A program made the translations under genes and the position numbers. 9,023 nt of DNA from an archaeon (lineage in GTDB: Archaea; Hydrothermarchaeota; Hydrothermarchaeia; JALTZZ01; JALUTC01), in contig JALTZH010000220.1 of the NCBI GenBank assembly GCA_027051265.1, forward strand, positions 1 to 9,023, given 5' to 3'. Positions within the stretch are counted from its first letter, which is position 1, and the number at the start of each line of letters is the position of its first letter. The notes under the pieces were generated by a model, which ran no database searches, had not been told where the DNA came from, and saw nothing but the letters and a program-made list of their open reading frames with translations. Below are positions 1,347-8,888 of this stretch, piece after piece.

Positions 1347-1439
1347 TTAGATTTCTGGAATTATTTCTTCAACAACCTTTTCCAAAGCTTCTTCCTCATT
1401 ATATGCGGGTAGAATAATTGAAATTTTTGAAGTAAACAT
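1347..1439 (-). pseudogene. truncated GT2 glycosyltransferase: first 30 codons only
   Basis: From an ATG at 1439 the minus strand encodes 30 residues and then TAA. They include ISIILPAYNEEEALEKVV and EEIIPEI, the classic first beta strand and helix of GT2 enzymes of the dolichyl-phosphate mannose synthase type (IIPAYNEE). It begins inside the last 41 bases of asnB, in another frame, and keeps a ribosome site (GAGGT at 1448-1452, about 8 bases before the ATG). It was therefore probably once the next gene of the operon. Everything after about residue 30, including the DDGS and DxD regions, is missing, and I find no continuation in the 47 bases before the convergent membrane-protein gene. It is likely a relic of a deletion or recombination. 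It was found by reading the frame directly, as it is too short for usual ORF cut-offs. Confidence 0.75.
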
Positions 1440-3270
1440 TATACCAAACCTCTAAAGCAAATAATGACCATGCAACCAATGCATGATGATAATTTTCAAT
1501 CATTCCTCTTTTAATTTTTTCCTCAACATATTTCAAAGAATTTTTATCAAAATATTTTCTAAGAAATTCTCCTTCCAAATGTTGTAGAACTATATCTCTC
1601 ATTTCTCCTCTAATCCAGTAATCTATTGGAACACCAAAACCCTGTTTTTTTCTCCACAGGATTTCCTTGGGTAACTTTATTTCTCCCGCTTTTCTTAGAA
1701 TCCATTTTCCCCTACCATTTTTTATTTTAAGGTCCGGTGGAATTTTATAAGAAAATTCAACTATTTTCTTATCCATTAAGATAAGTCTCTCTTCTATACC
1801 GTTTGCCATCGTTGCTTTATCGGCTTTCATCAGATACTTTTCGGCAAGGAGATTTTTTAGATCTAGTGCTAACATTAAATTCAAAGGGTTCTTCACATTC
1901 TTAGGTATAATTGCTTTCCTATAAATATCGATACGCTTTTTCCTCTTTAGAAGCCATAATATCTCATGATCACTCATTCCACGTGTGGTATAGAGATGAG
2001 CTTTTATCAAATCATCATGACTCAAATAGTATAGTCTTCTTACATTTCTATTAATCCATGGATTTCCCTTAATTGATAAAGGTAGGATTTCTACGGATTT
2101 TCCTATTAATTTTCTCAAAATTTTTGGTACTTTTAGATTCACGAAGTATTTTAGATTAGTTTTATAATTTCCATAACCACCAAATAATTCATCTCCAGCT
2201 TCTCCAGCTAAAACAACTTTAACATATCTGTTAGCCTCTTTTGATAGGAAATAGTTTGCAACTATAGCAGCATCTCCAACGGGTTCATCGAAATGCCAAG
2301 CTACTTTATAGAATTCTTTGATAACATCCTTTTCATCTATAACGATTTCATGATGAATTGTACCCAAATGCTCAGCAACTTTTCTTGCATAATCCAATTC
2401 GGAAAAGTATTTAAATCCCATACTAAACGTATGAAAATCGTAATCAACATAGTTCCTTGCAAATGCTATTGCTGTACTTGAATCTATTCCACCTGAGAGA
2501 AAGGCACCAACTGGTACATCACTCCTTAACCTTAATCTCGCGGATTCATCCAGTAATTTTCTCAACTCATTTATGAAATAATTTTCATCCCTATCGTTGA
2601 TTATATTTTCTTTTATATCCCAATATTTATCTATATATAATCTTTTATTTTTTAAATCAAATACTAAGAAATGTCCACCCAAAACTTTCTTTACATCTTC
2701 GAACATTGTTTGATCTCCTATAGTATATTGGAATGCTAAGAATGAATAAAACGCTTCAAAATTTATTTTCTTAGGGATTTCGTGTAAAAGTAATGCTTTT
2801 ATCTCACTGGCAAATATGAATCTATTACCATCGAAATAATAATATATGGGTTTTTTTCCAACAGGGTCTCTTGCAAGAATTAATATCTTTTTATTCAAAT
2901 CATAGAGTGCGAGAGCAAACATTCCTCTTAGTTTATTTAAAAATCCTAATCCGTACTCTTCATATGCATGTATTATAACTTCCGTATCCGTATTACTTTT
3001 AAATTCATGTCCATATTCTTCAAGTTCTTTTCTCAACTCTATGTAATTATAAATTTCTCCGTTGTATGTTATCCAAATACTATCATCTTCATTACTCATG
3101 GGCTGTCTTCCTCTTTTACTTAAATCTATTATACTTAACCTTGTATGTCCTAGAGTTATGTAGTCATCTATGTAAAAACCGAAATCATCAGGGCCACGAT
3201 GTCTTAACGTTTGAATCATTTTTAATACAAGGTTTTTATCCTGAAAGTTAAAACCCATTATACCACACAT
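1399..3270 (-). CDS. asnB: AsnB-type glutamine-dependent amidotransferase (asparagine synthetase family), polysaccharide locus
   Basis: The 623-residue protein has two domains. Residues 1-about 200 are a class II glutamine amidotransferase: Cys2 is the nucleophile after Met removal, with RLSIID (R44), NGEIYN (N70, E72) and D95 forming the glutamine site. Residues from about 230 are the ATP-pyrophosphatase synthetase domain with the PP-loop SGGIDSS at 259-265, LAGEAGDELFGGY later, and a C-terminal KKQGFGVP motif. All key residues look intact, and the length fits polysaccharide-locus AsnB homologues such as WbpS. Glutamine-derived ammonia is used to amidate an ATP-activated carboxylate. In this operon the substrate may be a sugar uronic acid rather than aspartate (inference); housekeeping asparagine synthesis is not excluded. 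The ATG overlaps the GT2 gene by 13 bp without a clear Shine-Dalgarno, suggesting translational coupling. Its last 41 bases overlap the GT2 stub. Confidence 0.9.
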   Translation of the reverse strand: MCGIMGFNFQDKNLVLKMIQTLRHRGPDDFGFYIDDYITLGHTRLSIIDLSKRGRQPMSNEDDSIWITYNGEIYNYIELRKELEEYGHEFKSNTDTEVIIHAYEEYGLGFLNKLRGMFALALYDLNKKILILARDPVGKKPIYYYFDGNRFIFASEIKALLLHEIPKKINFEAFYSFLAFQYTIGDQTMFEDVKKVLGGHFLVFDLKNKRLYIDKYWDIKENIINDRDENYFINELRKLLDESARLRLRSDVPVGAFLSGGIDSSTAIAFARNYVDYDFHTFSMGFKYFSELDYARKVAEHLGTIHHEIVIDEKDVIKEFYKVAWHFDEPVGDAAIVANYFLSKEANRYVKVVLAGEAGDELFGGYGNYKTNLKYFVNLKVPKILRKLIGKSVEILPLSIKGNPWINRNVRRLYYLSHDDLIKAHLYTTRGMSDHEILWLLKRKKRIDIYRKAIIPKNVKNPLNLMLALDLKNLLAEKYLMKADKATMANGIEERLILMDKKIVEFSYKIPPDLKIKNGRGKWILRKAGEIKLPKEILWRKKQGFGVPIDYWIRGEMRDIVLQHLEGEFLRKYFDKNSLKYVEEKIKRGMIENYHHALVAWSLFALEVWYNVYFKNFNYSTRI

Positions 3271-4256
3271 ACCGGAACTCTTGGTGTTAGTTTTAGATAT
3301 GTAGCAAATATACCAAGAATTGATAGTATTGTATATCTATTTTTATAATTTTTTAGTTGGTTTATAAAGTATCTTCTTGCTTTATCATATTCCTTATTTA
3401 TCAGATACGATAATCCAACAACAAAATCATACCTTGCTGCTAATTCTCTTATTATTTTTTCATGCAGCTTTTTAATTATAATATCATTAAAATGTATGTT
3501 TAAAGATGATAGTCTTTCATTATATTCCTTTAGAAAATCTAGTATAAATTTAGAGGAGGTCTTTGCGAATTCTAAACTCTTTCCAAATGATATCGAAAGA
3601 GGATGTTTTCTATAAAATGCGAGAATCTTTGGTATGTAATAAAATTTACCTTCTAAAGATAATCTGATCAATGTTGGAAAATCTTCCGCAGGTAATCCAT
3701 CAACCTGTACAAATCCACCAATTTTTTCCAGGATATCTCTTCTAATAATTAGTGTAGGTGCAGGAATAAAATTTTTAAGTAAGAAAAACATTTTTAAGGA
3801 TGAACCAATAGGATTGTTATACAACATTTTTTTAGGAGCTTTTGGTTTTCTTCTACTAATTCTTTCATCAAAAACGTTAATAATGCATACATCACCATAA
3901 CAGAGAATAACATCACAATCTTCTCTAAAAATTTTAACCTGGAGATCTAATTTATATCTTGGCCAATAATCATCACCTGCAAGAAGTGCTATTAAATCGC
4001 CAGTGGATTTTTTAAACGCGATATTAAATGTTTCAACTATTTTTTCAACACCTTTTCTTTTCTGTCTTATGTAAATAATTCTCGGATCATCAAAACTTTT
4101 AATAATTTTAGGTGTATTGTCTGTTGAACCATCATCTATTATAATCCATTCCCAATTTCTATATGTTTGATTTAAAACACTATGAATACATTTTTTTATA
4201 TATCTCTCTACATTATAAACAGGTGTAAGAATGCTAACCAAAGGTTTGCTTTTCAT
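3258..4256 (-). CDS. family 2 glycosyltransferase (GT-A fold)
   Basis: The start chosen is the ATG at 4256, giving 332 residues, because it forms a classic ATGA overlap with the aminotransferase stop. A GTG at 4262 would add two residues. The N-terminus has the GT2 pattern VSILTPVYN (7-15), then DDGSTD at 41-46 for nucleotide binding and GDD at 94-96 as the metal-binding DxD equivalent. An ED pair near residue 190 (GLPAEDFPTLIRLSL) fits the acceptor/base region. The C-terminal third is helical with no clear membrane span, so the enzyme is probably cytosolic or membrane-associated. It likely adds one sugar to a lipid-linked glycan. Donor and acceptor cannot be deduced. It sits between the aminotransferase and asnB genes and overlaps both, so it is surely co-transcribed. 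Confidence 0.88.
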   Translation of the reverse strand: MKSKPLVSILTPVYNVERYIKKCIHSVLNQTYRNWEWIIIDDGSTDNTPKIIKSFDDPRIIYIRQKRKGVEKIVETFNIAFKKSTGDLIALLAGDDYWPRYKLDLQVKIFREDCDVILCYGDVCIINVFDERISRRKPKAPKKMLYNNPIGSSLKMFFLLKNFIPAPTLIIRRDILEKIGGFVQVDGLPAEDFPTLIRLSLEGKFYYIPKILAFYRKHPLSISFGKSLEFAKTSSKFILDFLKEYNERLSSLNIHFNDIIIKKLHEKIIRELAARYDFVVGLSYLINKEYDKARRYFINQLKNYKNRYTILSILGIFATYLKLTPRVPVCVV

Positions 4257-5749
4257 AGACACGACACGATATCTTTAATATTTTTACATACATATAAGAT
4301 TTCTTCATATCTTATGTAAGGAAATAACGGTAAACTTAAGATTTCTCTGGAGATCCTTTCGGTTATTGGTAATGAGACTTTTGATATGTTCATAAACGCT
4401 TTTTGTAAATGAATTGGAACTGGATAATGAATTGCGGTTTCAACTCCTCGTTTCAATAACTCTTCACGTACTAGATCTCTTTTTTTTATCCTTATAACGT
4501 ATAAATGGTAAACATGTTTATTATATGAAGCTTCATAAGGAACAATAACGGTATCCTTTAAATTCTCATTATACAATTTTGCTGCATCTCTTCTCATATT
4601 ATTCCACTTATCCAAATATTTTAACTTTACTCTTAAAACTAATCCCTTTATTTCATCCAAACGAAAATTTCCTCCTATAATCTCATGAACGTATTTTTTT
4701 CTTGAACCGTGATTTTTTAACAATTTAACTTTTTCAGCCAGTTCATCATCGTTTGTTGTAATCGCACCTCCTTCTCCAATAGTGCCTAAATTTTTCGAGG
4801 GATAAAAGCTGAAGGCCGCAATATGACCTAATGATCCTGCTTTTCTTTTTTTATATTCTGCACCATGTGCCTGGCATGCATCTTCAATCACGTATAATCC
4901 ATACTTTTCGGCAATTTCATTAATGTAATCCATATCACAACATTGACCATATAAATGGACTGGTATAACTGCTTTTGTTTTCTCTGTAATATTTTTCTCA
5001 ATTTCTTCAGGATTTATCGTATATGTATATTCATCTATATCTACAAAAACGGGCTTTGCTCCCAATAAAGATATGGCTTCAGCTGTTGCTATGAAAGTAT
5101 TAGCCGGTAGAATTACTTCATCTCCAGGCTTTATTCCTATAGCTTTTAACGCAAGATAGAGTGCAGATGTTCCGGAATTTGTTACAATACAATGTTTTAC
5201 ATTACAATATTTGGCAAATTCTTCTTCGAATAATTTAACGTTAGTATCTTCTACAAATTTTGAAGTGAAAAGTATTTCATATATTCCCTTTTCTATTTCG
5301 GGTAAAATTTCTTTTAGTATTCTTGATAAATCCAAAAATGGAACACTTTTAATATTGAAATCTAAACGTAAAAATTCCTCAGGTGTTAATATCCTTTCAT
5401 CCTTTGGATAATCTTTTTTGTTCCAAGTTATAAAATAATCTAAAAATATTGATGAATGATAATTCATACCATCCTCAAAATCTTTAAAATTTAAAGCTCT
5501 TAGGATATCATCATTTTTTATGGGAATAATATTTACATACGATAATAATTCCCTCAAAAAATCTCTTGTAGACTTCCTATTAAGCTCCTTTTCAAGGATA
5601 TAATTAACTATACCAATTATACAAGAAGATGTATAACATTGTATTAACCCTCTCTTACATAATTCAAGAATAGCTAGAGAATATTCATATCTTTCACGTT
5701 TAAGAAATATATCAAGTATTACATTTGCATCCAAAAAAACTTTAAGCAT
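4253..5749 (-). CDS. PIN-domain (PIN_3/VapC-like) fused to DegT/DnrJ/EryC1/StrS sugar aminotransferase
   Basis: This is a single 498-residue frame. Residues 1-129 are a full PIN domain of the PIN_3 type: FLDANVILD (D7), TSSCIIGIVNYIL (40-52), KDFEDGMNYHS (E92, D93), FITWNKKDYP (N110, D113) and the usual ending ILTPEEFL. PIN domains are metal-dependent RNases, often VapC-like toxins. Residues 134-498 are a complete PLP-dependent sugar aminotransferase. VPFLDLS marks its start, NSGTSAL (191-197) the phosphate site, EDACQAHGA (289-297) the cofactor contact and SFYPSKNLG (314-322) the Schiff-base Lys319. At about 365 residues the second part matches free-standing WbpE/WlbC/ArnB enzymes, which convert a 3- or 4-keto sugar nucleotide to an amine. 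No stop and no ATG or GTG separates the two parts; codon 133 is ATT where homologues start with ATG. The start overlaps the preceding candidate antitoxin gene by 8 bp. Whether the PIN part is active, cleaved off or inert cannot be told. Confidence 0.85.
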   Translation of the reverse strand: MLKVFLDANVILDIFLKRERYEYSLAILELCKRGLIQCYTSSCIIGIVNYILEKELNRKSTRDFLRELLSYVNIIPIKNDDILRALNFKDFEDGMNYHSSIFLDYFITWNKKDYPKDERILTPEEFLRLDFNIKSVPFLDLSRILKEILPEIEKGIYEILFTSKFVEDTNVKLFEEEFAKYCNVKHCIVTNSGTSALYLALKAIGIKPGDEVILPANTFIATAEAISLLGAKPVFVDIDEYTYTINPEEIEKNITEKTKAVIPVHLYGQCCDMDYINEIAEKYGLYVIEDACQAHGAEYKKRKAGSLGHIAAFSFYPSKNLGTIGEGGAITTNDDELAEKVKLLKNHGSRKKYVHEIIGGNFRLDEIKGLVLRVKLKYLDKWNNMRRDAAKLYNENLKDTVIVPYEASYNKHVYHLYVIRIKKRDLVREELLKRGVETAIHYPVPIHLQKAFMNISKVSLPITERISREILSLPLFPYIRYEEILYVCKNIKDIVSCL

Positions 5750-6140
5750 ATTTCTTCAGCAAATATTTATAATAACTCTCTTTGATATCTTCTTCAGGTT
5801 TTATTCTTATCTGTGTAATAATTTTTAAGAAGTTATCACTAAAGGTTAAATCTATTCCCGTTCTGTTCTTAACCTCTTTCTTTAAACGTTCCACCAGTTG
5901 TTTTTTAAATTCATTCTGAAATATTAATACGATTAATGATAATAGTTCTAGTAAAACATCCTCAGATTTTTTTGGAGATTTTACTGAAGCCCTTTCCCAT
6001 AAGCTTAAGATTTCTTCTTTAGTAATTTCCTTCATATATTTCTCATAAAAACTTTTATATATATTATATAAATCTTCAGATAATATTATTTCAATTGAAT
6101 ATATATCCTTTTCAAGTTTTTTTTCAAGAATACGCAACAT
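5742..6140 (-). CDS. small helical protein, candidate antitoxin for the PIN domain
   Basis: The protein has 132 residues, is rich in Lys, Glu, Leu and Ile, and is predicted almost wholly helical. A central hydrophobic helix (LLELLSLIVLIF, about 64-75) could be a dimer core. I do not recognise a family: no clear ribbon-helix-helix, AbrB or helix-turn-helix motif is visible. Its last bases overlap the PIN start (8 bp, ATG inside the TAA-ending 3' end), the typical arrangement of an antitoxin gene placed directly before its PIN toxin. That position is the only support for an antitoxin role. It has its own ribosome site overlapping the stop of the acyltransferase gene, 6 bp upstream. It interrupts what would otherwise be an acyltransferase-aminotransferase gene pair. 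Alternatives are an accessory protein of the sugar pathway or an unrelated insertion. Confidence 0.6.
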   Translation of the reverse strand: MLRILEKKLEKDIYSIEIILSEDLYNIYKSFYEKYMKEITKEEILSLWERASVKSPKKSEDVLLELLSLIVLIFQNEFKKQLVERLKKEVKNRTGIDLTFSDNFLKIITQIRIKPEEDIKESYYKYLLKKYA

Positions 6141-6145
6141 TTCTA

Positions 6146-6152
6146 ATCACCT
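6146..6152 (-). promoter_or_regulatory. Shine-Dalgarno AGGTGAT of the candidate antitoxin gene
   Basis: AGGTGAT lies five bases before the ATG at 6140 and contains the archaeal GGTGA core. It also includes the TGA stop of the acyltransferase gene, so ribosomes ending there are placed to restart. It supports the 6140 start. Confidence 0.6.
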
Positions 6153-6752
6153 AATAATCTCATATCCACACTTTTCACATTTAATTTTACTATTTTTAAC
6201 ATCGTATATAATATTATTACATTTACATCTAACACCTTTAATTTCCGCAGGGATACCGTATGCGAGTGCATGGTTTGGGATATTTTTTGTGACGATTGAT
6301 CCTGCGCCTATTAATGAATATTTTCCAATTCTTACTGGTAATATAATTGAGCCACTACCTATGGAAGCGAAGTCTTCAACAATAGTTTCGAGGAGATTCC
6401 ACTCGTTTGTTATCATTTTACCGAATTCGTTTACAGCTCTTGGATATTTATCGTTTATAAATATTACACCATGTCCTATGAAAACGCCCTTCCCTATTTT
6501 TACGCCCTCACAAATGAAAGAATGGGACTGAATCTTACAGTTCTCCCCTATTATAACATTTTTCTGAATCTCAACGAATGGGCCTATTTTTGTATTTCTT
6601 CCAATTTTACATCCGTATAGGTTGCAAAAGCCAAATATCTTGCAGTTATCCTCTATTACAACATCATCCTGAATGAATGAATAAGGGCCTATATAAACGT
6701 TCTTACCAATCTTTGCTCTATTACTTATTATAGCTGTTGGATGTGTTACCAT
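6147..6752 (-). CDS. left-handed beta-helix sugar N-acyltransferase with C-terminal zinc ribbon (WbpD/WlbB-like)
   Basis: The protein has 201 residues. Residues 1-160 are isoleucine/valine-rich hexapeptide repeats (IGKNVYIG, IGRNTKIG, IGENCKIQ, IGKGVFIG, IGKYSLIG), the left-handed beta-helix of trimeric acyl-CoA transferases. The loop N100-D101-xx-P104-R105 is typical of the WbpD/WlbB group, which acetylate the 3-amino group of UDP-2-acetamido-3-amino-2,3-dideoxyuronic acids. After YGIPAEIKG comes a four-cysteine tail (C176, C178, C192, C195) that should bind one zinc; similar short zinc ribbons occur in this group. The enzyme is cytosolic. It starts inside the end of the dehydrogenase gene (7-bp overlap) behind a very strong ribosome site. 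The acyl donor is presumed to be acetyl-CoA. The exact sugar is inferred from the gene set. Confidence 0.88.
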   Translation of the reverse strand: MVTHPTAIISNRAKIGKNVYIGPYSFIQDDVVIEDNCKIFGFCNLYGCKIGRNTKIGPFVEIQKNVIIGENCKIQSHSFICEGVKIGKGVFIGHGVIFINDKYPRAVNEFGKMITNEWNLLETIVEDFASIGSGSIILPVRIGKYSLIGAGSIVTKNIPNHALAYGIPAEIKGVRCKCNNIIYDVKNSKIKCEKCGYEIIR

Positions 6753-7744
6753 TCTATTTCAACCTCCTTTCCCTCCCTTAAACTTTTATCACAGGCTTCC
6801 AATAACTTAACGACTTTTAATCCTTCGTATCCATCCACCAGAGGTTTTTTCTTATTTATTAGGCAGTCAACGATATGTTCAACCTCGATACGTAAAGGTT
6901 CTTTGTTTTCAATTTTAGGAACGTATATATCTCCGCTTCTATAAGTTGGGAAGAATGGGCTTTCCTTAGATAAGTCAACTTCGACACCTTTATCATAAAC
7001 CTTTACCTTTTCAAACGGATTCGTATCATCGTATAAAATCATTTTTTTATCACCCGCAATAATAATCTTTCTGATTTTAACCGGGGAGAGCCATGAGACA
7101 TGGATATGAGCTATGAATCCGTTATCATATCTTATCATGATATGTGCCAAATCTTCATAATACGGATGCTTATGTTTTGAGCCAATTGCTATTAAACTTT
7201 TTGGTTTGAAATTGAAGAGGAAGGTTAATATCGAAAAATCATGAGGGGCCAAATCCCAAATAACGTTTACATCCTTTTGTAAGAGACCGAGATTTATCCT
7301 TTCAGAATCGAAATACAGGGGTTTACCAATCTCGTTTATTATTTCCTTTATTTTTCTAACCGGTGGTGAGAAAACGAAGGTGTGATCGACGAAAATGTAT
7401 AAATTCAATTCCTTTGCAATTTCTATCAATTCCTCAGCATCCTTAACTTTTGTTGTCATTGGTTTTTCGATCAATACATTTTTTCCAGATTCTAAGCATT
7501 CCTTGGCAATTTTATAATGTGTTGCTGGAGGCGTTGCTATGCATATGAGATCTACCTTGTCGTCCTTTAATATTTCCTTATAATCCTTTGTAACTTTAAT
7601 ATTTGGATATCTCTTCTTTATCTTCATAAGGTTCTCTTCCAATAAATCACATGCATAAATTACTTTCGCATTATCCACCGCTTCAAAGTTCCTAACAAGA
7701 TTCGGCCCCCAATAACCTAGACCTATCACAGCTACGTTTATCAT
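6746..7744 (-). CDS. Gfo/Idh/MocA-family NAD(P)-dependent sugar-nucleotide dehydrogenase (WbpB/WlbA-like)
   Basis: The protein has 332 residues. The N-terminal Rossmann domain has GLGYWGPN (8-15) for the dinucleotide, D33 at the end of strand 2 (favouring NAD), ATPPATHY (70-77) and E93-K94-P95, the family's catalytic-lysine motif. The C-terminal domain has WDLAPHD (163-169), with D164 and H168 as the usual catalytic pair. This fits the WbpB/WlbA subgroup, which oxidises C3 of UDP-N-acetyl-glucosaminuronic acid. The acyltransferase and aminotransferase downstream complete that three-step path. It is the first gene of the minus-strand operon. Its ATG is only 12 bp from the divergent GT4 ATG, and I see no good TATA box at the expected distance; the promoter would have to lie inside the opposing gene. 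Confidence 0.9.
   Translation of the reverse strand: MINVAVIGLGYWGPNLVRNFEAVDNAKVIYACDLLEENLMKIKKRYPNIKVTKDYKEILKDDKVDLICIATPPATHYKIAKECLESGKNVLIEKPMTTKVKDAEELIEIAKELNLYIFVDHTFVFSPPVRKIKEIINEIGKPLYFDSERINLGLLQKDVNVIWDLAPHDFSILTFLFNFKPKSLIAIGSKHKHPYYEDLAHIMIRYDNGFIAHIHVSWLSPVKIRKIIIAGDKKMILYDDTNPFEKVKVYDKGVEVDLSKESPFFPTYRSGDIYVPKIENKEPLRIEVEHIVDCLINKKKPLVDGYEGLKVVKLLEACDKSLREGKEVEIEW
6761..6769 (-). promoter_or_regulatory. strong Shine-Dalgarno AAGGAGGTT of the acyltransferase gene
   Basis: AAGGAGGTT lies inside the end of the dehydrogenase gene, about eight bases before the ATG at 6752. It is the strongest ribosome site in the window and fixes this start. It also implies that the acyltransferase is translated at a high rate from the shared mRNA. 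Confidence 0.7.
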
Positions 7745-7756
7745 AATACTTAATAT

Positions 7757-8329
7757 ATGAAGAGTGCTGCAATATTACTAACTATTCATGGAAATTTTAA
7801 GGAAATGCTTACAAAAACGAAAGGAAGTATTTCAAGAATTAACGAATTTCTATTAATAAAAAAATTTTCTAAAAAATACAAAAAAGTATTTATATTTAGC
7901 GACGATAAAAAAGATTTCAGTCATATTTTGCCAAGAAATTGTATTCATATTAGATTGAAAAATTCTTTGATATATTTATTATTTGGATGGCTTATATTCC
8001 ATTACTATGTAAGAAGATATAAGATTAAAGTTGCCTATCTAGTAGGTTCTCCTGCATTACCATTGGTATTTTTAAAGCCAAAAAATGTTATAACGATTCT
8101 TGAATACAATTATCTTTGGAATTCTTCATATAGATATGATAAAAGCTTAACTCTAAGAAAAAAACTTATTAAAAATGGAATTACATCTTTTCTAATATCT
8201 CTATTGGAAAAATTTTTGGTCAGAAATTTTGTAAATTTTATAATAATAGGCACGCATGAAGCTTATGATTTTATATCAAAAAAATGTTATCTTACCGATA
8301 AGAAAAGGTGTAATATTGGATTGCTTTAA
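7757..8329 (+). CDS. GT4 glycosyltransferase, N-terminal half (frame broken near 8278-8284)
   Basis: This frame codes for 190 residues. Residues 1 to about 175 form the N-terminal Rossmann half of a GT-B enzyme: strand AAILLTIHGN, later VFIFSDD, VAYLVGSPALPLVF and the domain-end strand FIIIGTHEAYDFISK. The last 15 residues (CYLTDKKR...) do not fit the family, while the +1 frame continues it correctly, so the two frames together make one GT4 enzyme of about 376 residues. A seven-A run at 8278-8284 is the likely site; reading six A joins SK directly to NVILPIRKGV. On its own this part carries no donor-binding domain. Its ATG lies 12 bp from the divergent dehydrogenase start, with no clear ribosome site or well-placed TATA box. 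Confidence 0.75.
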   Translation: MKSAAILLTIHGNFKEMLTKTKGSISRINEFLLIKKFSKKYKKVFIFSDDKKDFSHILPRNCIHIRLKNSLIYLLFGWLIFHYYVRRYKIKVAYLVGSPALPLVFLKPKNVITILEYNYLWNSSYRYDKSLTLRKKLIKNGITSFLISLLEKFLVRNFVNFIIIGTHEAYDFISKKCYLTDKKRCNIGLL

Positions 8330-8888
8330 TCCGGATAAAATAAAACCTCACAAAATATATGATAAAATTAAAGGAAGAGTATTGGTTTTTATCGGTAGAT
8401 TGGTTCCAACAAAGGATCCGATAACTTTATTAAAAGCTTTTAGAATAGTCAAAAAATATTATAATGATGTAAAATTGATAATCTGTGGAGATGGTGAGTT
8501 AAAAAAATATTGTGAAAGGCTATCGGATAATGATGTTCATTTCTTAGGTTACGTGAAAGAAATACCTTCAATACTCAAAGGTGCAGATATATATGTTCAT
8601 CCATCCATATACGACCCTTCTCCACGTGCTTTACTTGAAGCAATGGCAATGGGTAAAGCTTGCGTTGCTACGATTGGAACAAAAGATTATTTGTTGGGAT
8701 GTGGTATATTAGTAAAACCAAAAAATCCAGAAATGTTAGCTAGAGCAATAATATATTTGTTGAAAAATAGAAAATTGATGAAAGAATTGGGTAAAAAAGC
8801 CAGAGAACGAATCTTAGAATATCATGATTACGAAAAAAATATAGAGTTTCTCATGGAAATTTTGGAAAGATTTTATGAAAGAAATTGA
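8256..8888 (+). CDS. GT4 glycosyltransferase, C-terminal donor-binding half (frame broken from the N-terminal half)
   Basis: The frame is open from an ATG at 8256, but genuine family sequence begins only around 8286 (NVILPIRKGVILDCFNPD, the interdomain linker). Then follow GRLVPTKDPITLLKAF, CGDGEL, HFLGYV, HPSIYDPSPRALLEAMAMG and CGILVKPKNPE. These are the standard GT4 donor-binding elements, with the E-x7-E-like acidic motif at the ALLEAM helix. The C-terminus is the usual long helix. It overlaps the N-terminal frame by 74 bp. It could be half of a frameshifted gene, an assembly indel, or a separately translated subunit, but no ribosome site precedes 8256. Its 3' end overlaps the epimerase gene by 14 bp. 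It probably adds a sugar to the same glycan as the core operon. Confidence 0.78.
   Translation: MKLMILYQKNVILPIRKGVILDCFNPDKIKPHKIYDKIKGRVLVFIGRLVPTKDPITLLKAFRIVKKYYNDVKLIICGDGELKKYCERLSDNDVHFLGYVKEIPSILKGADIYVHPSIYDPSPRALLEAMAMGKACVATIGTKDYLLGCGILVKPKNPEMLARAIIYLLKNRKLMKELGKKARERILEYHDYEKNIEFLMEILERFYERN
8278..8284 (+). other. seven-A run at the GT4 frame break
   Basis: Seven consecutive A occur exactly where the two GT4 frames exchange. Removing one A (or adding two) joins the halves into one continuous enzyme. Such runs are prone to replication slippage, polymerase slippage and sequencing error. Confidence 0.6.

Follow-up and report, generated by a model that had tools for sequence, protein, structure and literature searches.

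The window, the whole 9,023-nucleotide stretch of DNA analysed here, is an entire contig of a genome assembly (G000) of 1.46 Mb, 257 contigs, and 95% completeness, which is archaeal as judged from its gene content and from the type of genomes related to it. In the window, genes for a Gfo/Idh dehydrogenase, a hexapeptide acetyltransferase, a putative toxin–antitoxin (TA) pair, a DegT aminotransferase, a GT2 glycosyltransferase, and an AsnB-like protein follow one another in this order, and the toxin and the aminotransferase belong to one polypeptide (Table 1). An earlier note, made from the letters of the window, had read this polypeptide as an in-frame fusion of a PIN toxin-type domain to a sugar-nucleotide aminotransferase, with both parts complete and Lys319 as the Schiff-base lysine.

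Table 1 Features of the amino-sugar operon and of the fusion it contains.
Feature	Position	Strand	Description and basis
PIN–DegT fusion ORF	5749..4253	minus	498 aa, single open frame without interruption
PIN_3 (VapC-fold) domain	5357..5749	minus	Fusion residues 1–131; Pfam, AlphaFold2, VapC fold match, alignments
Short linker NIKS	5345..5356	minus	Residues 132–135; junction codons
DegT/DnrJ/EryC1/StrS aminotransferase, WlbC/WbpE-type	4253..5344	minus	Residues 136–498, Schiff-base Lys319
Predicted antitoxin gene	5742..6140	minus	132 aa; 8-bp overlap with the fusion (ATGCTTAA); position, overlap, C-terminal tail
Predicted antitoxin tail YYKYLLKKYA	5745..5774	minus	Common to antitoxins of standalone PIN_3 toxins
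Hexapeptide-repeat sugar acetyltransferase (WlbB/WbpD-like)	6147..6752	minus	Precedes the TA pair; Pfam Hexapep; syntenic in G002:C6
Gfo/Idh/MocA dehydrogenase (WlbA/WbpB or archaeal UDP-GlcNAc 3-dehydrogenase-like)	6746..7744	minus	Pfam, NCBIfam
GT2 glycosyltransferase	3258..4262	minus	Overlaps the fusion 3' end, same operon; Pfam
Asparagine synthase-like amidotransferase	1399..3270	minus	Next operon gene; Pfam, overlap

The window also carries other coding regions. On the plus strand, a glycosyltransferase is split over the overlapping frames 7757–8329 and 8256–8888; an intact homologue of 375 residues is present at L039:733–1860, and the split is either a real frameshift or a sequence error. 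On the minus strand, positions 214–768 encode a coiled-coil protein in which units similar to VEKRFEQVDKRFEQ are repeated. Defence-system profiles gave no convincing match.

The fusion is a continuous ORF with matches to two Pfam families above cut-off, PIN_3 at residues 3–110 (45.5 bits, cut-off 27) and DegT_DnrJ_EryC1 at residues 151–491 (415.5 bits), as the earlier note had proposed. Alignments of DegT relatives to the fusion begin at residues 133–136 (VPFLDL), and the last PIN helix of the AlphaFold2 model ends at about residue 131. Therefore, the join lies between about residue 131 and residue 136, the valine of VPFLDL. The two halves were modelled separately because the PIN rows did not align correctly in the combined PIN+DegT alignment. 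The model of the PIN part (residues 1–134) has a pLDDT of 94.6, and its nearest solved structures are VapC toxins within VapBC complexes (Z about 14). The Pfam match and this model together assign the domain to the VapC-type PIN fold. In the full-length model, the pLDDT of DegT is above 90 over most of the domain, and the PIN half is poor because the alignment behind that model contains no PIN relatives. The DegT half matches the family profile, keeps the family-invariant columns, including D290, Q293, K319, and N320, and aligns to PDB 7b0d from residue 136 onwards with 436.9 bits. Both parts are thus complete, the PIN over residues 1–131 in a confident model and the DegT from residue 136 with its PLP-site residues, and K319 occupies the Schiff-base position. 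As part of a fusion of this length, the PIN is not a single-domain small toxin.

A search for other chains that combine the two domains yields two more full-length fusions, both in G002, an archaeal genome of the same order, on contigs C151 (505 aa) and C25 (542 aa). They resemble the window fusion in architecture, in join point, and in having a small overlapping ORF just upstream, whereas their PINs are 25–31% identical to the window PIN and their upstream ORFs differ. G000 and G002 together encode eight true DegTs, of which three carry a PIN; no DegT is attached to the other PINs detected in these two genomes. No further PIN–DegT fusion was found with the full-length profile in 394 related archaeal genomes, and none was found in the plasmid, phage, and viral-contig searches; bacterial chromosomes were scanned with the PIN part alone as query. 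At L010, L011, L017, L023, and L007, where other DegTs also lie in long open frames, no PIN is present. The earlier note had asked whether related genomes keep the fusion. The C151 and C25 proteins are fused, but at the nearest orthologous locus, on contig C6 of G002, the DegT is 69% identical to that of the window, the PIN is absent, and a 40-residue N-terminal extension (L039:3525–3660) replaces the normal start. The fusion is therefore dispensable.

The C6 extension was considered as a possible antitoxin remnant. Shuffle tests give no support against the upstream ORFs of C151 and C25, and the comparison with the window antitoxin reaches a p of only 0.01, with unrelated ORFs scoring equally high; a remnant is not claimed. 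Elsewhere in the C6 region, the syntenic glycan cluster carries a MazE/AbrB-type antitoxin and a VapC-type PIN between its AsnB-like gene and a glycosyltransferase gene (L039:7569–8238). PIN domains also occur within other long frames. At L064 (G017:C96, about 1453–2433), a single open frame of 327 residues encodes a PIN and, after it, a macro-domain-like region, which makes it another PIN fusion in the same class. At L136 (Geminocystis plasmid pGM3709_01), a long ORF annotated as a pentapeptide-repeat protein includes a PIN_3-like domain. A transposase-like gene (L041:648–2036; G000:C257) adjoins another DegT locus of G000.

The dehydrogenase and the acetyltransferase beside the fusion form the cassette that accompanies WlbC/WbpE-like DegTs, and the gene order is the same in relatives. 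Orthologues of the dehydrogenase are found in G002 on C6 (82% identical) and C151 (62%); in the same-genus genome G001 (81% complete), the dehydrogenase of this locus is absent altogether. Judged from the neighbouring genes only, the DegT substrate would be a 3-keto sugar nucleotide. In relatives with an unfused DegT (L146, L147, and L142), the DegT gene directly follows the acetyltransferase gene, indicating that the TA pair of the window sits exactly at the DegT start.

Unfused DegTs begin with M-[IQ]-PFVDL. The closest of them are 55–57% identical to the window DegT, and two of these lie directly after a hexapeptide gene. At the junction codons of the fusion, there is no ATG or GTG start for the aminotransferase; the sole start candidate in the window is a TTG at Leu139, which is beyond the normal start, and a ribosome-binding site is not seen. 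Because the DegT start codon is absent, the window aminotransferase appears to be made solely together with the toxin domain. In the C25 fusion, an internal ATG after GAGGTC could initiate DegT alone, and strict coupling of toxin and enzyme is therefore not universal.

The earlier note had also stated that the acidic residues of the PIN are kept. In the alignments, D7, D90, E92, and D93 are indeed retained, as is N110, but Ile47 stands where VapC toxins have their catalytic Glu, and Trp109 replaces the TRN-motif Arg, leaving the set of active-site polar residues incomplete. At the catalytic-Glu position, 18 of 20 standalone PIN_3 proteins have Asn or Asp; of the fusions, those of the window and C151 have Ile and that of C25 has Asn (Fisher p = 0.067). 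The C25 PIN retains this active-site Asn and a TRD motif. D7, D90, E92, and D93 are present in all three fusions, although the PINs are only 25–35% identical. Given Ile47 and Trp109, the RNase activity of the window PIN may be low or absent, and the toxicity of this PIN and any addiction effect are doubtful.

The 132-residue protein encoded directly upstream of the fusion, by a small gene that overlaps it, ends in the tail pattern YxxYLxxKY. This pattern is that of the partners of standalone PIN_3 toxins, including the Slr8014/Ssr8013 pair, and small proteins with a matching tail are encoded directly upstream of standalone PIN_3 genes in spirochaete and cyanobacterial loci. In a scan of 4428 ORF tails, a background taken from the retrieved loci only, scored on PIN_3-antitoxin tails, the 132-residue protein reaches 32.2 and the next best tail 19.6. 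The protein has no Pfam or NCBIfam match above cut-off, and no homologue was found in the other 149 related genomes searched. The GC contents of the antitoxin gene (24.6%) and the PIN part (25.2%) are lower than those of the neighbours (28–35%), as if both arrived as a unit. By its position, overlap, and tail, the 132-residue gene is very probably that of the cognate antitoxin of the fused PIN. On the strength of the tail match and the Slr8014/Ssr8013 pair, we read the window as containing a type II TA pair with a DegT-fused toxin. The antitoxins of the window, C151, and C25 loci are not demonstrably members of one family.

The history of the fusions was examined in a separate tree for each half. 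In the DegT tree, the window groups with C6 (99/87) and then with C151 (100/99), and C25 lies outside; a single clade of fused DegTs is not rejected (AU p = 0.39). In the PIN tree, C151 and C25 group together (95/93), and the window lies beside a spirochaete standalone PIN (80/77); a single clade of fused PINs is not rejected (AU p = 0.29). The fusions may accordingly stem from one old event followed by fast change of the PIN, or from two captures; both are possible.

Our main reading, to which we give a probability of about 0.5, is that a PIN_3-type TA pair of the Slr8014/Ssr8013 kind has tied itself to a metabolic enzyme of an archaeal amino-sugar operon. The pair would have settled after the acetyltransferase gene and before that of the aminotransferase, with the C-terminus of the toxin taking the place of the DegT start codon. 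The DegT part, together with the neighbouring dehydrogenase and acetyltransferase, would produce a 3-amino sugar nucleotide. The antitoxin would be translated first, in a coupled manner, and would bind the PIN via its tail and keep it silent, so that the enzyme would exist only in the antitoxin-bound form. Such an arrangement would act as a lock: with loss of the toxin gene the sugar enzyme would be lost too, and with loss of the antitoxin the toxin domain would be exposed. The PIN of the window, whose active site looks weakened, may now be less a strong toxin than a handle by which the antitoxin or RNA binds to the enzyme. A wider claim is tentative, and we consider it rather unlikely: that toxin–DegT fusion anchors a recurrent TA class in the glycan operons of one archaeal order, with no sugar enzyme made without toxin and antitoxin and with the antitoxin controlling the enzyme.

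Among the alternatives, the one that survives best is an accidental or neutral fusion, which we regard as possible, if on the unlikely side. A TA pair would have landed in the operon, its stop would have been lost, and the PIN, now in decay, would be tolerated for the sake of the needed DegT. The altered active-site region in two of the three fusions (at the Fisher p of 0.067 given above) and the C6 orthologue that does without a PIN are consistent with such a course, as is the fact that TA pairs are common mobile elements, another AbrB/VapC pair being present in the same C6 cluster. Decay accords poorly, however, with the retention of D7, D90, E92, and D93 in all three fusions at 25–35% PIN identity and with the conserved antitoxin tail, and the occurrence of three fusions with a single join point in two genomes makes a pure accident less likely. 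The earlier note had offered a tolerated PIN and a glycan synthesis that depends on the antitoxin; either may hold.

Less probable is a PIN that is no longer toxic and has taken on a regulatory or RNA-binding role, such as feedback on the operon mRNA or antitoxin-controlled assembly of the enzyme. The changed active site within a preserved fold would suit such a role, and the PDB structures that match the PIN fold include a Cas9-bound subunit (8wmm) and the cyclodehydratase RohQ, proteins whose roles are different; the C25 PIN, with its retained active-site Asn and TRD motif, argues against it. Quite improbable is a PhoH2-like, functional elongated toxin that uses its DegT part only as a platform for dimerisation or localisation: the PhoH2 layout is identical, with an antitoxin followed by a PIN and a C-terminal enzyme (PMC4826407), but the DegT keeps its catalytic residues and fills the expected slot of the amino-sugar cassette, and the PIN site is weakened. 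Least probable of all is a sequence or assembly error that joined two genes, for although the window is one complete contig, 9 kb long, from a fragmented assembly and another of its glycosyltransferases is split by a frame change, the two full-length fusions with the same join in the separate genome G002 make chance or error very unlikely, and no stop codon and no DegT start codon occur near the assembled junction; on this evidence, the fusion is real and not the assembly accident that the earlier note had wanted excluded.

Returning to the lock between the TA pair and the sugar enzyme, toxin–enzyme fusions are already known from PhoH2; in the literature searched, we found none to a biosynthetic surface-sugar enzyme and no report of a PIN–DegT fusion. 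If the lock is real, it provides a concrete way for a selfish TA pair to resist loss, and it may show how toxins come to be tamed as metabolic regulators. In addition, it makes the question of why chromosomes keep TA pairs testable in a defined operon.

Three known systems come closest to the window. Its PIN is 31% identical to that of L127, which we take to be slr8014 from its plasmid (Synechocystis pSYSG), its position, and its DUF2281 partner. Slr8014 degrades lpp mRNA and arrests the growth of E. coli unless its antitoxin Ssr8013 is present (PMC4963859). As in the window, the antitoxin of this PIN_3/DUF2281 type II TA system is encoded upstream and has the same type of C-terminal tail; unlike the window PIN, Slr8014 is a standalone toxin of 141 residues with its own stop and keeps the active-site Asn and the TRD motif, and the N-terminal part of Ssr8013 differs from that of the window antitoxin. 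The window resembles WbpE/WlbC-type systems in its DegT half and its Gfo/Idh and hexapeptide neighbours, whereas WbpE/WlbC and related DegTs (PDB 7b0d, 3frk, and 3nyu) are known enzymes without an N-terminal toxin domain. In the mycobacterial PhoH2/PhoAT system, an antitoxin gene lies just upstream of a PIN fused to a C-terminal enzyme (PMC4826407). The window shares with PhoH2 the N-terminal PIN toxin domain, the large C-terminal enzyme, and the small upstream antitoxin gene. The C-terminal part of PhoH2 is an RNA helicase/ATPase that plausibly aids RNA cleavage, whereas that of the window is, by its Pfam match, a DegT sugar-nucleotide aminotransferase and not a PhoH ATPase. The window system is best read as a variant of the multidomain VapC-type toxins, comparable to PhoH2.
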